Position numbers and translations under genes: made by a program
Assembly (NCBI GenBank): GCA_008802785.1
Contig: VUYT01000021.1
Location: 62,001-126,000, forward strand
Origin: Symmetrospora coprosmae
Taxonomy: Eukaryota; Basidiomycota; Cystobasidiomycetes; Symmetrosporaceae
DNA: 64,000 bases
Direction: 5' to 3'
Part shown: piece by piece, positions 51,895 through 60,238 of the stretch
Layout: each line of letters begins with the position of its first letter
Position numbering within the stretch: the stretch's first letter is position 1
Notes under the pieces: model-generated
The model's input: only the letters and a program-made list of their open reading frames with translations
Databases searched by the model: none
What the model was told of the DNA's origin: nothing

Positions 51895-53013
51895 CTATGT
51901 ACCCTTGACATTGATGACAACCTTGCCAAAGTGGCTGCCGCTATATAGATATTGCAGAGCTTCTTTTGCTTCCTCGAACTCGAAGACCCTGTCGACGACT
52001 GGGCGGATGCCATGCCGTGCGTAGAAAGCGTTCATCTCTTCGAATCTGTCCTTGGGTCCATTCAAGATGCCTTTGAGAGTGACATTCTTCCGGAGAGCCA
52101 GGACATTTGTGTTGAGCCTGTCGCTCGGCTCGTCCTCCTTTCCGGAAAGGTAGCCGATACAGGAGATGAAACCGCCAAAGGCGATGCAGTCGAAGGACTT
52201 GCGGAGTGTCTGGGCTCCTCCTGTCTCGAGAATAATGTTGGCGCCTTCGCCTTGCGTTATCCGCATGACCTCGTCCTGCCATTCAGGGTTCGTGCGATAG
52301 TTGATGGTGTGCATAGCGCCGAGTGCTCTGGCCTTTTCGAGCTTGGCATCCGATGAGGATGTGACGATGGCTGTAGGTGAGATGTGTCAGCTGGTGAAAG
52401 TAAGTATCCCTGTTGTCGCAGGCCCACCTTTAGCACCTGCGGCTGCCGCAATTTGCAGTCCTGCCGTTGCGACTCCTCCCGTCCCTTGCAGGAGCATAAA
52501 CTCGTCCTTGCCGACGATCTCTCCGTCTCTGCGCATGCCATTGATGGACATCCAGGCAGTGACCGCTGCAATGGGCAGTGTGGCTGCCTCTTCGTCACTG
52601 AGGTGCTCCGGTGCTCGAACGAGACCGGTGGCTGGAAAGACGCGGTGAGTCGCAAGGACACCAGGAAGCGGTAGACCGAGACCAGAAGTCATGTCTTTGG
52701 CGGTGATCTGGCCGGTCAGGTGCGTCTGGTTGAAAGTGGACAGGACGCGATCTCCGACCTTCCAGGAGGAGCTGCCCTCTCCGACAGCGGTGACGACACC
52801 GCACATGTCGGAGCACGGGACGATGGTGCTCGAGCTCTGCGTCGACTTGTGATGATTGTAGAGGCCCATGCAGACCTCGGTATCCCTGTAATTCAGGGAG
52901 ACCGCGCTGATTTCGACCAGGACCTCATCCTTTCCCGGCTGAGGCAAGCTCGTCTCGGAAAGCTGTAGCTTGTCCAGGCCATCCCGATTGCTTGTCCATT
53001 GTCGGGTCGTCAT
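51895..53013 (-). CDS. Medium-chain (MDR) alcohol dehydrogenase / quinone-oxidoreductase-like
   Basis: Exons 52428-53013 and 51895-52370 give 353 aa. Zinc-type MDR proteins reduce or oxidise alcohols and aldehydes with NAD(P). The catalytic fold shows VSLNYRDTEVCMGLY, CSDMCGVVTAVGEG and WKVGDRVLSTF. The dinucleotide-binding fold has LLQGTGGVATAGLQIAAAAG (GxGGVA) and AIVTSSSDAKLEKARALGA. The structural four-Cys zinc lobe seems absent, so it is nearer the quinone oxidoreductase/zinc-free branch. The substrate is unknown. It is divergent from the SDR gene with only 94 bp between starts, which suggests co-regulation. Confidence 0.88.
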
Positions 53014-53107
53014 TTCGGTAGAGTCGGTGTGAGAGCAACCTATCCTCCTGGGAGATCTCCGCGGCAGAGTTCCGAGAGACGTCCCTTCACACCAACACGT
53101 CATCGAA
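53014..53107. promoter_or_regulatory. 94-bp divergent promoter for the MDR and SDR genes
   Basis: The two ATGs (53013 on minus, 53108 on plus) face away from each other. Such a short interval implies shared regulation. No individual site recognised. Confidence 0.4.
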
Positions 53108-54094
53108 ATGAGCGCGAAGCAGGTCGTTCTCATCACTGGAGCCTCGAAAGGTCTCGGACTCGAGTGCGCAAGGATCCTCCTCGGCAGATTCGATGCCAAT
53201 GTGGTTGCCCTTTCGCGGAGCTTAACGCCCGAGCTGGAGGAGCTCAAGTCCGGCAACGCGTCTCAGCTGGAGGTTGTGCAGGGCGACGTGTGCAATGTCG
53301 CTGATCAGACTGTGCGTGTCAATGGCTGGCTCACTGCATGCGCGACTAACGCGTGCGCCACGCAGAAAGCGGTCGAGGCTGCCGTGTCGAAGTTTGGCAA
53401 GCTGGATGGACTGATACTGAATGCGTGCGTTGTCGAGCGTCCGTACCGGCATGTACAGGCAGAGACCTTCCGTACTGATCTTGCCTCACAGCGGTGCCCT
53501 GGAGCCTCTGTCGCGGGTCGCCAACGCCGACATCGATGACTTCAAGGTGGGCTGCTCTGGCTATATGTATGAAGGTCTGCTGACGATATCGCCCGCAGCA
53601 CCTCTTCGACGTCAACTTCTTCTCGCTGGTCTCCATGCTCAAGGTCGCCATCCCGCACCTGCGCCAGAGTCGCGGACGCTGCATCTTTACGTCATCTGGC
53701 GCTGCTACCGGAGCCTACTCTGCCTGGTCGGCATACAATGCTAGCAAAGCGGCACTGAACTCGCTCTGCAGGACAGTCGCTACGGAAGAGGCGGATATCA
53801 CCTTCGTGGCCGTCCGACCCGGAGTCGTGGACACTGGAATGCAGGATTTGCTACTCGAGCGTGGCAAGGAGGAGATGTCTCCAAGCGACTAGTGAGTTGA
53901 GTCCGTATGGCAAGCGGCATGTGCTGACCCTCTGTCGCAGCCGCAAGTTCGCAGATATGCATAGCGAGGGCAAGCGCGTTCCTCCGCAAAAGCCGGGGCA
54001 TGTGCTGGCAGCCCTGGCAATCTCGGCAGACCCTAAGCTGAGTGGAGCGTTTGTCAACTGGGAGGAGGAGAGTATGGGGAAGTATAGAGGGTAG
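53108..54094 (+). CDS. Short-chain dehydrogenase/reductase, benzil-reductase-like
   Basis: Exons 53108-53311, 53366-53424, 53492-53546, 53599-53891 and 53941-54094 give 254 aa, classical SDR length. It has the cofactor motif TGASKGLG, the NAG motif LDGLILNAGAL (created by splicing), the catalytic Ser in CIFTSSGAATGAYSAW, and the Tyr/Lys pair in SAYNASKAALNSL. VRPGVVDTGMQ follows, as in the yeast Irc24 / bacterial benzil reductase group. These are NADPH-dependent carbonyl reductases; the real substrate is unknown. The second exon is 59 nt and the third 55 nt. Neighbours (MDR dehydrogenase, P450) suggest joint action on one substrate or on xenobiotics (inference). Confidence 0.9.
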
Positions 54095-54159
54095 CGTTGT
54101 AGCGTTGTACTGGCAATAAAGACGGTGGATCTCCCTCGGTGCCAAAAGTAAGAGACTAC

Positions 54160-54164
54160 AAAAA
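54160..54164 (-). terminator. Pol III terminator of the tRNA-Ala gene
   Basis: Five T on the minus strand, 16 nt past the proposed discriminator base at 54180. This position supports that 3' end. Confidence 0.7.
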
Positions 54165-54186
54165 GACATCGCGACGATGTGGAGAA

Positions 54187-54245
54187 CTGTGGGAGGTCGG
54201 GTCAGTGGCAGTCAATTGAAACTTGAATATGTAACGAAGACTGAC
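54187..54245 (-). other. tRNA intron 3 (between bases 66 and 67), GT-AG type
   Basis: 59 nt. Starts GTCAGTCTTCG, has CACTGAC as a possible branch site and ends CCCACAG. It lies in the 3' acceptor strand, where nuclear tRNA introns are not normally found. Confidence 0.72.
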
Positions 54246-54274
54246 TAGGCGGTTCGAACGCCTGACCCCTGCCT

Positions 54275-54306
54275 GGCACGTCGCAATAGAAGCAGAGCTT
54301 TCTAGG
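54275..54306 (-). other. tRNA intron 2, canonical position 37/38
   Basis: 32 nt directly 3' of A37. This is the normal eukaryotic tRNA intron site, cut by the SEN endonuclease. The boundary could shift by one base. Confidence 0.78.
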
Positions 54307-54328
54307 TGCGAAGACAATGCTCTACCAC

Positions 54329-54386
54329 CTGATGAAGTGCTGTGTTAGTAGTGCCAACTGACATTGACAGTGGACGAAAGACTGAC
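54329..54386 (-). other. tRNA intron 1 (D-loop), GT-AG type with TACTAAC
   Basis: 58 nt. Starts GTCAGTCTTTCG, contains a perfect TACTAAC 20 nt before the 3' AG, and ends CATCAG. Exact removal restores the standard D-arm TAGCTCAGTGGTAGAGC. Confidence 0.78.
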
Positions 54387-54425
54387 TGAGCTAAATCCCC
54401 CGATGACCGCAAGAACAGTAGTAGC

Positions 54426-54434
54426 TTATATAAA
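54426..54434 (-). promoter_or_regulatory. TATA-like element upstream of tRNA-Ala
   Basis: On the minus strand reads TTTATATAA, 26-34 bp before the tRNA 5' end, where some fungal Pol III genes carry a TATA element. Confidence 0.5.
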
Positions 54435-54463
54435 TTATTAAACAGGGCAGCTGGTAGGAGAGC

Positions 54464-54553
54464 AGCCGGCAGAGAGCGGCTGGCAAGGGGAACAGCTGGC
54501 AGAGAGCGGCTGGCAAGGAGAGCAGCTGGAAGAGAGCGGCTGGCAAGGAGAAC
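54464..54553. repeat. 30-bp minisatellite, three units
   Basis: Units at 54464, 54494 and 54524 differ at only a few bases; core AGAGAGCGGCTGGCAAGG. Lies just upstream of the tRNA promoter. Confidence 0.9.
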
Positions 54554-54692
54554 AGGAAGGGGCAGGCAGTTGCAGGTAGGCATGGTGCTAAGATCTACTG
54601 TAAGTCGACAACAGTGGTAGATGAGCCTCTATTCTTCCTCTCGTTGTGATATCATTCCAGAGCTCCAGGACGCAGGCTACGAATACAGCGTC

Positions 54693-56366
54693 TCACTTCT
54701 GAGCGTGGTGAGCCCTGCGAGACTGTCGGAACGAAGCGGCCGCTGCTACTGTCTGTGCCCTCATTGAGGCAGGCTGCCTGTGAACGGGCAGAGTGCTCAG
54801 ATACTTCTCCTGCTCCTCGGTCGGTGCCGGACGTGCCATCTGCAGGTTGGATCGGTCGGTGAGCTTCAGGGCCGGCGCCTGGCGACGCTCAGGAGCGTGG
54901 TCGTCAGGCTTCTCAGTCCAGTCTCGCTGACGCTTCTTGATTCCGGCAGCCAGCTCGCCTCCTAGCTCCGGGAAGACTTCCTGCGGGGGCGTGGTGTGGA
55001 AGGCCTGGGGATCTGGGTTCGGCAGCAGCGTGGTGATGTTCTTGCGAGTGCGCCCGTAGACGACGTCCACGATGGACTTCCCCTTGTAATTTCCGCCAAA
55101 GGCATCACCAAAGCGATCCTCCCAAGCTCGAAGGTCTTGTACTCCGGGCAACTTCTTGGGAGTCCCGTCCGCATTGTTGGTGTACGATTCGAGCCAGACG
55201 GCCATGCAGCCGCGAACGATGTCCAGGTCGGAAGCGTTCTTGTGGAAGACGGCCGAGTCAAAGATGTTGATGTTGAAGTGCTGGCCCGTAGTGAATGCGC
55301 CGAGGGCATGGCAAGCCGCTTCCTCGATATTGCGGATCTGCCTTGGGTAGCCGTCTTCCTGTACGACGACGGCGTAGCGGTCCCAGGTGGTCATGTCGGG
55401 GCCTTTTTCTACGAGAGCGCAGGCCCGCCTCAGCACCGAGCTTCTCGTAGCGCTAGAGACGTCAACTTACTCATGTACCTCCTCATGTGCCTGTTCACGC
55501 CCTTCTTCGCGTGGCCTTTCATTCGCTTGCCGAAGTGCTTGGTCTGGCCGCCGTAGCCTCTTTCGCCGCGCATGGGAGGCAAGGCCGGCGCGATGAGGAC
55601 GTAGAGACCGCCCAAATCTTTCGGGAATCTGGGATCCCGCGCTTCGATGCCTCCTTTGGCGAACACTCGCAGCGGTACGGGTACGCCAGACTGAGCAGCT
55701 CTGTGTGCGTGGCGAGCGGAGACGCAGTCACGTGAATGAATGGTTGCAGGAACAAACAGGCAGAGACGCGTCAGAACAAAACAAATAACACAGCTTGGCT
55801 TCGCTCCGAATGGTTACATTTAACATACTGAATGAATGGCTCGACCCACTCCTTCTTGCCGTGCAGCAGCAGCGCGATGACGACGTGGAAGTTCTGCAGT
55901 CGGGGATGCTCGCCGACAATGCTGCAGACGGCCGGGCAGGGAGGGAAGAGGGCCCAGCGAGGGAGGGAGGACCTGGCGCGCTTGTGGTACTCCAGCAACC
56001 CAGTATCAGGGTGAATGCTGGGTGATAGAAGTGGTCAGCACTAGTCTGCTGCTGTTGCAGGCTTGCTGGGCTGCTCACGTCATGATGGGGTCCGCGGCCC
56101 AGAGGGTGCGCACTCGGTCGCCGACAACCAGGACCTGGAGCCAGCACAGAGCGTCAGTGAGCGCTCCCAGCCTAACATGCGTGCCTGACAGCGAGGCCTG
56201 CGCTTACCTTGCTCATGAATGCCTTGTCCAGTCCCTTCTCTGCTACAGCGCTCTCGAGCCACGCGCTGAGCTCCTCCGGCCGCAGCAGTCGTACTTCCTT
56301 CTTCTTTGCGTTGCTGGCCGCTTGCCCAGCCTTCTTAGCGTCCTCTAGCTCTTGGGTGCATGCCAT
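54693..56366 (-). CDS. Unfamiliar protein with GIY-YIG-like nuclease domain
   Basis: Exons 56208-56366, 56079-56134, 55829-56017, 55471-55700 and 54693-55408 give 449 aa. I do not know the full protein. Its middle resembles a GIY-YIG fold: GGLYVLIAP supplies GIY, GYGGQT supplies YIG after a longer than usual loop, TKHFGKRMKGHAKK has the expected Arg and His, and RNIEEAACHAL gives a candidate catalytic Glu. GIY-YIG domains cut DNA or act in repair and selfish elements. The N-terminal part has VLVVGDRVRTLWAAD and LQNFHVVIALLLHGKKEW; the C-terminal 100 residues are basic and disordered. A 51-nt in-frame pyrimidine-rich stretch near 55930 may be an optional intron. Divergent from another unknown gene. 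Confidence 0.6.
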
Positions 56367-58715: not shown

Positions 58716-60238
58716 ATGACGACGACCACGACGACGATTCTCGGGGGCGGCCTCTCTGGACTTTGTTCAGCGTACTACCTGTCCAAGCTCCCGCAGAACC
58801 GGGTCATCCTCCTCGAGCGGTCGAGTCGATTCGGAGGATGGGTGCGGACGCAGCCGAACGGGTTCGAGGCGGGTCCTCGGAGCGTGCGGCCGGTCGGGCT
58901 GCAAGGCTTGCTCACGCTGCAGATCATAGATGAGCTGGGCTTAGCACCGTCGCTAGTCACCGTCTCCAAATCGCATCCTGCTGCGCGGAATCGCTACATC
59001 TACTACCCGGATCGGCTGCATCGAGCGCCAAACTCAATAAAGTCGGCCGTCGCCTCGTCCTTTAGCAAGACATCGCCATTCACCCGGCTATTGCCATCAG
59101 TGCTATCTGAGCCGTTCCGCAAGAAGCAGAGACATGCAGAGGACGAGAGCGTCGACAGCTTTGTCAGTCGCAGATTCGGCGCCAGCTTCGCCGAGAACGT
59201 CCTCTCGGCTCTCGTGCACGGCATCTACGCTGGCGACACGCGGCAGCTCTCCGTACGCTCTGTCTTTCCCTCTCTGTGGAACATGGAGCAGCACCGTGGA
59301 AGCGTCGTCCTCAGCATGCTCTCCGGAGGCGTCAAGCCGCCAAAAGCGGAAACGGACGAGTTCAAGCAGCTGCAGGCGAGCTTGCCGGAGCTCGTCGAGA
59401 AGATGAAGGATGTCAGCGTGTACTCGCTGCAAGGAGGATTGGAAGCGCTCCCGAGAGCAATGGTGAAGCATCTCGGCTCGTTGGATAATGTCGAACTGCG
59501 GACGGACACGTCTGCAAAAAGTCTCGAGTACAGCCAGGGCAGCTTCAAGGTGAGGTATTCCGCTGATCCAAGATGGGCACAAGCTAATACAGGGCGCAGA
59601 TATCAACCTCCTCCTCCGACACCATCACTTCGGACCGCGTCGTCTCGGCCCTCTCCTCCACCGCTCTCGGCTCGCTCATTGACCTGCCACACCTCTCGCA
59701 CAATCCTTCCGTCACGGTCGGCGTAGTCAACCTCGCCTTCCCTTCGAGCTTCAAGCTGCCCATACAGGGCTTCGGCTACCTCATCCCACGCTCCGTTCCA
59801 CTCTCGCAGAACCCGCACCGTGCGCTCGGCGTCGTCTTTGACTCGGACATGTTTGGTGCCGAGGATGGACAGACGCGCGTGACTGTCATGCTAGGCGGGC
59901 ACTACTGGCAGAATGAAACTCCACCGTCACCAGAAGCGCTACTCAGTGGTGCGCTCGAAACGCTGCACCTGCATGGCATTGTGCCCAGTACTATCGAGCC
60001 CATCCACCACAAAGCCCAGATCCAGGAGAACTGCATACCGCAATACCTCGTCGGTCACCCGCAGCGCATGCGCCAGCTGCACTCGGCACTGCTCGACAAG
60101 TACGATGGCAAGCTCGGACTCGTCGGCTCCAGCTACAATGGCGTTGGGATGAACGACTGCATCAAGAGCAGCTGGGACCAAGCACGGCGGCAGGCGGCAA
60201 GTGGGAGCAGCACAGGACTAGAAGGGTGGCATACTTGA
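58716..60238 (+). CDS. HEM14: Protoporphyrinogen oxidase
   Basis: Exons 58716-59549 and 59600-60238 give 490 aa. Hem14 oxidises protoporphyrinogen IX to protoporphyrin IX with FAD and O2 at the mitochondrial inner membrane, the step before ferrochelatase. It begins with the FAD-binding ILGGGLSGLCSAYYLSKL and LLERSSRFGGWVRT. Next are FEAGPRSVRPVG, SFVSRRFGASFAENVLSALV with HGIYAGDTRQLSVRSVFP, and YSLQGGLEALPRAM. The C-terminus has VGVVNLAFPS, GFGYLIPRS, GVVFDSDMFG, VTVMLGGHYW and VGSSYNGVGMNDCIKSSWDQ, the closing FAD motif. Identity is certain. The start is the ATG at 58716, just before the dinucleotide fold, as usual for fungal enzymes without a cleaved presequence. Confidence 0.95.

Follow-up and report, generated by a model that had tools for sequence, protein, structure and literature searches.

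Putative spliceosomal introns in a nuclear tRNA-Ala(CGC) gene and other tRNA genes of Symmetrospora coprosmae

The window analysed here, a 64,000-nt stretch of the basidiomycete Symmetrospora coprosmae (assembly GCA_008802785.1, contig VUYT01000021.1, positions 62,001 to 126,000), carries on its minus strand, from 54400 to 54180, a tRNA-Ala(CGC) gene that is split by three segments. One of these is an intron between tRNA positions 37 and 38 (37/38), and the other two begin with GT and end with AG. Judged from its sequence, the locus is very probably a functional nuclear gene, expressed as an RNA polymerase III (Pol III) transcript with two U2-type GT-AG spliceosomal introns in addition to the 37/38 intron. 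An earlier reading of the same DNA (the original prediction) had described GT-AG segments of 58 and 59 nt with branch-like TACTAAC and CACTGAC motifs, one in the D-loop and one in the 3' strand of the acceptor stem; the sequence agrees with the lengths and motifs, and the placement was confirmed, at 14/15 and 66/67 (Table 1).

Table 1. Features of the interrupted tRNA-Ala(CGC) locus and other elements discussed in the text; plain numbers are window positions, and G000 entries are contig positions in the genome set.
Feature	Position	Strand	Remarks
TATA-like element TATATAA	54426..54432	-	first base 32 nt upstream of the tRNA; probable upstream Pol III core element
Exon 1	54387..54400	-	acceptor 5' strand, positions 8-9, D-stem 5' strand, A14; from sequence and ARAGORN
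GT-AG intron 1	54329..54386	-	58 nt, 14/15 (D-loop, within A box); GTCAGT...TACTAAC...ATCAG
Exon 2a	54307..54328	-	rest of D-arm, anticodon stem 5' strand, anticodon CGC, A37
37/38 intron, ordinary tRNA splicing endonuclease type	54275..54306	-	32 nt; placement by ARAGORN
Exon 2b	54246..54274	-	A38, anticodon stem 3' strand, variable loop, T-arm with B box CGTTCGAACCG, A66
GT-AG intron 2	54187..54245	-	59 nt, 66/67 (acceptor 3' strand); GTCAGT...CACTGAC...CACAG
Exon 3	54180..54186	-	positions 67-73 (TTCTCCA)
T5 run	54160..54164	-	probable Pol III terminator, 15 nt past the tRNA
SNORD74 match over intron 1	54318..54392	+	20.9 bits (gathering score 41), E 0.2
Open reading frame adjoining the tRNA	54693..55466	-
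Protoporphyrinogen oxidase mRNA intron	59550..59599		50 nt; GTGAGG...GCTAATAC...GCAG
U6 gene L101	G000:C22:965634-965705		near contig end; 72-nt intron GTTAGT...CTTAC...CAG between TTGG and AACGATACAGAGA
tRNA-Ile(AAT) L081, interrupted	G000:C14:133528-133668
tRNA-Ile(AAT) L009, uninterrupted	G000:C55:262420-262494
tRNA-Ala(TGC) 5' part, L143	G000:C7:378230-378520		exon 1 and intron start
tRNA-like locus L079	G000:C55:719729-719811

The interrupted tRNA-Ala(CGC) gene

Neither ARAGORN with its intron option off nor Rfam detected a tRNA within the unmodified window. Once both GT-AG segments were removed, ARAGORN with introns allowed returned tRNA-Ala(cgc) and placed a 32-nt intron at 37/38; by eye, TTGCGA of that intron is able to pair with TCGCA of the anticodon loop. 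The fully spliced product is 72 nt long, with anticodon CGC and a G3-U70 pair. Its B box is unbroken, and intron 1 divides its A box. RNAfold on the unmodified 72-mer gave no cloverleaf (z -0.87 versus 500 mononucleotide shuffles) and lends no support.

A splicing search was performed on regions of at most 425 nt, in which all GT..AG segments of 45-95 nt were considered, no more than two were removed, and the tRNAs called by ARAGORN were scored. The cloverleaf score comprised terms for stems, T8, A14, GG, A21, T33, a purine at 37 and TTC; the inputs were GT, AG, length and cloverleaf, and neither G at intron position +5 nor the branch motif played any part. The window locus scored 25.8, a value attained by none of 400 dinucleotide shuffles in which the T-arm was kept (best 21.4). 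Among 51 control regions of the same genome, these being pattern matches with a B-box-like motif that were judged non-tRNA, 48 were unscored and the remaining three reached 20.4, 14.1 and 9.1. Of the GT-AG-interrupted loci examined, 20 of 21 yielded a tRNA scoring at least 24.2, by removal of three introns in L086 and of at most two in the rest; the exception, the Met gene L116 (20.3), is a weak member of the set.

All 256 donor-acceptor dinucleotide rules were then compared on 20 loci, with L039, L040 and L075, which have no GT-AG intron, and the three-intron L086 omitted. GT-AG led, bringing 19 of 20 loci to 24 or above at a mean of 26.7; the runner-up, GT-CA, reached that level at 14 loci (mean 21.5), and three more rules did so at 11 or 12. 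At individual loci, GT-AG was best or joint best in 14 of 20 cases, ties being many at some, and it was outscored by other rules at L116 (68 rules), L067 (14), the window locus (13), L093 (4), L102 (3) and L064 (2). A chance cloverleaf was rejected on the shuffles, the control regions and this test. Some loci were read differently by the search, by hand or by ARAGORN. For L102, Glu(TTC), another weak member of the set, the search picked a different 3' splice site and anticodon (26.7, versus 26.2 for the final model); L145, Thr(AGT), weak as well, was read by hand, since its unusual G54 lies outside the scorer's pattern and the automatic run left it unscored; L039 and L040 are Glu(CTC) by our own scorer, but Ser and SeC by ARAGORN, which missed L077.

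Interrupted tRNA genes across the genome

The genome set (G000; 20.05 Mb in 77 contigs) yielded 22 modelled nuclear tRNA genes with 31 GT-AG introns at 19 positions, and a further 21 listed genes without such introns, so that 22 of 43 are interrupted. Ten of the 21 have an intron in the ARAGORN call. The interrupted isotypes are Ala(CGC, TGC, AGC), Lys(CTT) twice, Arg(CCT), Trp, Gln(CTG), Gly(TCC, CCC), Cys, Ile(AAT), Asp twice, Pro(CGG, AGG, TGG), Leu(TAG, AAG), Glu(TTC), elongator Met and Thr(AGT). Numbered by hand from the modelled exons, the GT-AG introns lie at 13/14, 14/15, 15/16 (six), 16/17, 21/22, 22/23, 24/25, 25/26 (three), 27/28 (three), 28/29, 31/32, 32/33, 33/34, 34/35 (two), 46/47, 51/52 (three), 52/53, 53/54 and 66/67; none of the 31 is at 37/38. 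The most divided gene, Pro(CGG) (L086), has three GT-AG introns, no 37/38 intron, and exons of 16, 11, 23 and 22 nt. The same combination of spliceosome-like introns, mRNA-type signals and, in many genes, the normal 37/38 intron thus extends to 22 tRNA genes, which supports the original prediction of such introns in a Pol III tRNA as far as sequence can.

These genes were collected by several routes. A search with the Rfam tRNA model, in which 63 of 188 candidates were scored, gave 41 matches, of which the 22 nuclear ones were all inspected; it reached three of the 22 interrupted genes, and one of these stood above the cut-off. The other 19 matches lie on contig C77, which is probably the mitochondrial genome because of this concentration and because its loci have 37-43% GC. 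Further loci were sought with B-box patterns, D-arm patterns and fetched stretches, and the resulting lists were inspected in part: all 14 nuclear places of a B-box list of 19; 30 loci plus 12 more, a few others being already covered, from a list of 76 (66 nuclear); five, plus the window locus, from a list of 204 (100 listed); 19, fetched or screened, and five already covered, from a list of 53; and 16, screened, from a list of 58. Twenty places screened for T-arms as 63-nt stretches added one new gene (L139, extended as L142). A bait of concatenated tRNAs had no genome match, a result that says nothing on presence.

One alternative is that insertions have turned the interrupted loci into dead copies and that intact copies elsewhere supply the tRNAs. 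Fragments and degenerate-looking tRNA-like loci do exist in this genome, namely L143, the minus strand of L066, and L080, and a search in which 63 of 188 candidates were scored is not exhaustive. L143, which holds the 5' part of a tRNA-Ala(TGC), lies some 9 kb away from the complete gene L085; no 3' part is evident within its 291 bases, and it looks like a fragment. Yet among the inspected loci of this incomplete search every gene seen for Asp, Cys, Trp, Pro, Lys or Met was an interrupted one, and the loci that splice at GT-AG into a well-scoring tRNA number 20 of 21. Branch motifs would moreover be lost from dead DNA. The incomplete search also found no gene, interrupted or not, for Val(AAC, TAC), His, initiator Met, Ser(GCT, TGA), Lys(TTT) and others. 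The original prediction had named another intact tRNA-Ala(CGC) gene, combined with a lack of spliced transcripts from this locus, as a point that would tell against it; no clear second gene was seen among the inspected loci, with L079 ambiguous and a minority of the two-mismatch D-arm places inspected.

Comparison of paralogues bears on the same alternative. When its 66-nt GT-AG intron at 13/14 is removed, the tRNA-Ile(AAT) gene L081 is identical to the uninterrupted L009 at 75 of 75 bases, and the two form an intron presence/absence pair. For Leu(AAG), L104 has a D-loop intron and L144 lacks it, although this pair also differs outside the intron, with 94 identical positions in 120 aligned columns. 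Between the two Lys(CTT) genes 92 of 94 exon bases match, whereas their introns are identical at 46 of 73 and 53 of 72 aligned columns, with GT, branch motif and AG kept; conserved exons beside drifting introns are not what broken copies would lead one to expect. The Asp pair (exons 86/86, introns 59/63 and 57/61) is a recent duplicate and less informative. On balance, the dead-copy explanation is extremely improbable. If the introns are indeed spliceosomal, their presence or absence in identical paralogues offers a clean case for intron gain or loss without a reading frame.

Splice signals and the nature of the introns

The 29 automatically chosen introns come from 21 loci, with three from L086, the automatic 3' end for L102, and L145 excluded. 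All 29 have G at +5, a feature of 377 of the 1382 remaining GT..AG segments in these loci, and all 29 have CTNAY 13-32 nt before the end, which 249 of those 1382 have. Because the Asp pair and the Lys pair are related, the 29 are not independent draws. The final 31 introns are 58-90 nt long (mean 66), begin with GTNNG in every case, and end in CAG (27), TAG (2), AAG (1) or GAG (1). Every one of the 31 contains CTNAY (shuffle mean 12.4, maximum 22), its branch A lying 15-30 nt from the 3' end, and 20 have the stricter CTRAC (shuffle mean 3.5, maximum 10). They may resemble the mRNA introns of this genome: the one such intron mapped, in the protoporphyrinogen oxidase gene of the window, and the intron of the U6 gene (Table 1) are both similar, at n=2.

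Nuclear tRNA introns have been described at 37/38, where they are cut by the tRNA splicing endonuclease (SEN) (PMC3978253). Such canonical introns are found at the expected place in many of the interrupted genes, the window gene included, and the GT-AG introns form a second, separate class alongside them within one gene. Could SEN or a relative also cut the GT-AG segments, as happens to the ectopic tRNA introns of Cyanidioschyzon, with GT and AG incidental? Ectopic and multiple tRNA introns are known in Cyanidioschyzon merolae and archaea, those of C. merolae having a bulge-helix-bulge (BHB) structure, and many in the Guillardia theta nucleomorph lack a defined BHB (PMC3978253). The likeness extends to introns outside 37/38, several per gene, a disturbed internal promoter, a TATA-like element upstream and a T run downstream (PMC3978253). 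However, the introns of C. merolae and archaea are cut by the endonuclease at the BHB, whereas those described here have, in its place, GT, G at +5, a branch motif and AG. A 4-bp BHB-like central helix (best of nine registers) was found in one of the 31, fewer than the mean of 3.2 among re-dealt introns; the same helix occurs in seven of 17 37/38 introns, for which no re-dealt control exists. BHB introns were therefore rejected. Cutting at a BHB would select neither G at +5 nor the branch motif, each present in 29 of 29 introns, and the same signals recur in U6. Cleavage by the tRNA endonuclease is thus a very unlikely explanation.

Other intron classes fared no better. Rfam gave no match of any kind above cut-off in the window, and none to an intron family at E of 10 or below in 53000-56000. 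At 58-59 nt, the segments are in any case too short for a group I or group II intron. A family of mobile introners was rejected as well: outside the Asp and Lys pairs, the best intron pair reached 22, while shuffled sets had a mean of 23.3 and a maximum of 28. The antisense SNORD74 match over intron 1 was dismissed as probably chance, since C- and D-box-like letters can arise from splice signals on the opposite strand. As a separate observation, six introns lie at 15/16 in Lys, Asp and Leu genes (L035/L069, L083/L087, L095 and L104), with sequences unlike between isotypes; the site just after A14-G15, where GTNAGT mimics the A box, is perhaps favoured for insertion.

Introns of the mRNA type are not without precedent in small structured RNAs. 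The U6 gene of fission yeast (Schizosaccharomyces pombe) has one (PMC10484740), fungal U3 genes are frequently interrupted, and a 2017 study singled out U3 and U6 as the only small structured RNAs in which frequent interruption was known (PMC5832005). Intron presence in U6 and U3 can vary between paralogues and close species (PMC10484740; PMC5832005). The precedent of U6, which the original prediction had invoked for an intron in a Pol III RNA, holds within this very genome, whose U6 gene has an mRNA-type intron; by contrast, the single 5S rRNA match (47 of 1070 candidates scored) spans Rfam model positions 1-120 in 119 bases without interruption. The tRNA genes here share the pre-mRNA-type GT-AG introns with U6 of S. 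pombe and with U3 of Basidiomycota and Ascomycota. They differ in the host RNA, in extent (22 of the 43 listed genes, at 19 positions and with as many as three in one gene) and in the involvement of a second splicing system.

Nuclear rRNA genes of some fungi also contain mRNA-type introns in a structural RNA, which is however a Pol I product and no tRNA; a 1993 paper cited in PMC11782384 reportedly, by its title, deals with an intron of messenger RNA type in the 18S rDNA of the nucleus. To the best of our knowledge, no case of tRNA genes hosting spliceosomal introns has been recorded, and a search of the openly accessible literature, with most subscription papers and all bioRxiv preprints outside its scope, found no earlier report. 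What would be new is the host, the tRNA gene, spliceosomal introns in other structured RNAs being already known.

Transcription and processing

A run of at least four T begins within 25 nt downstream of all 22 interrupted genes, and T5 or longer occurs in none of the 31 GT-AG introns; this pattern points to transcription by Pol III. Upstream of 14 of the 22 lies an exact TATA that starts between -32 and -47. Nine introns, from 13/14 to 16/17, break the A box of nine of the 22 genes, and the B box is touched at its edge only, at 52/53 in Trp and 53/54 in Ala(AGC); this scarcity says little, because the genes were mostly found through the B box. In C. merolae, transcription of tRNA genes with displaced or disturbed boxes was suggested to depend on an upstream TATA (PMC3978253).

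It is also conceivable that the GT-AG introns are spliceosomal and that the tRNAs are made by Pol II within longer RNAs. Spliceosomes normally work on Pol II transcripts, and an A box broken in nine of 22 genes would fit such an origin. The flanking T runs, the lack of T5 within the introns and the TATA elements argue the other way, and in C. merolae and some fungi tRNA genes with similar flanks have been described (PMC3978253). A Pol II origin is therefore unlikely.

Several points weigh against a functional Pol III transcript with spliceosomal introns. At the window locus alone, 13 of 256 dinucleotide rules outscore GT-AG and four others equal it; GT-AG is not the unique best rule there, and the weight for this reading is carried by the genome's other genes. 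Both 5' splice sites of the window gene have C at +3, which is absent from every other intron of the set. The CGC anticodon and G3-U70 pair of the original prediction stand, and its full cloverleaf needs one correction, the 72-nt tRNA having a U6-U67 mismatch in the acceptor stem; ARAGORN starts the tRNA one base further upstream and so escapes it. ARAGORN also names L079 tRNA-Ala(cgc) when an 11-nt insert is set off 37/38; with the insert at 37/38, L079 has anticodon CAC and T3-A70, which is not the Ala pair, and the anticodon parse is ambiguous. Its T-loop (AUCGAAA) and D-arm are initiator-like. T4 occurs inside four of 31 introns, not clearly below shuffles (mean 5.9), and an exact TATA was not seen in eight of 22 genes, among them L145 with only 18 nt of upstream DNA. 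The Lys(CTT) flanks are about as divergent as the introns (upstream 65/113, downstream 47/65), so that in this pair the exons alone, not the introns, look constrained. Finally, the gene list is incomplete and was collected chiefly via intact B boxes.

Beside the observed sequences, signals, Ile paralogue, Lys exons and flanks, we infer a scheme of Pol III transcription, removal by the spliceosome, an order of steps and a role for TATA. The upstream TATA element would let initiation tolerate an interrupted A box. The spliceosome would then remove both GT-AG introns of the tRNA-Ala(CGC) transcript, recognising the two splice sites and the branch point over a span of 58-59 nt. It would act first, because the GT-AG introns prevent the cloverleaf, which could fold only after their removal; RNase P, RNase Z and SEN would follow, with SEN and tRNA ligase excising the 37/38 intron. 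The same scheme would hold for no fewer than 21 further nuclear tRNA genes, except for the SEN step where no 37/38 intron is present. This suggests that the tRNAs of this fungus need the mRNA splicing machinery plus the usual tRNA splicing enzyme.

A broader view is on balance probable, though held with less assurance: the whole tRNA set of the lineage may rely on two splicing machines in series, introns having invaded many times and at many positions. In that case, TATA and B box would carry initiation, GTNAGT after A14 or G15 would partly mimic the A box, Pol III transcripts would be general spliceosome substrates, and translation would be coupled to splicing. Should the spliceosomal reading hold for the interrupted genes, Pol III transcripts can be routine substrates of the spliceosome, splicing can rebuild tRNAs from exons as short as 11-12 nt, and an internal promoter can be interrupted without gene loss. 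Counts of tRNA genes from standard searches may likewise overlook many genes, as the limited reach of the Rfam search illustrates.

Among the neighbouring protein genes, the window's protoporphyrinogen oxidase clusters with three sequences (100/99) and stands weakly near rusts and Microbotryomycetes (43/85). A glycosyltransferase search included a Puccinia triticina match at 34% among its 45 matches. Contigs of relatives carry proteins with 92-99% identity to products of window genes. The open reading frame adjoining the tRNA gene showed just two relatives (96% and 99% identical) when 1932 candidates out of 5.8 billion proteins were scored, and possibly encodes an orphan protein of the lineage.
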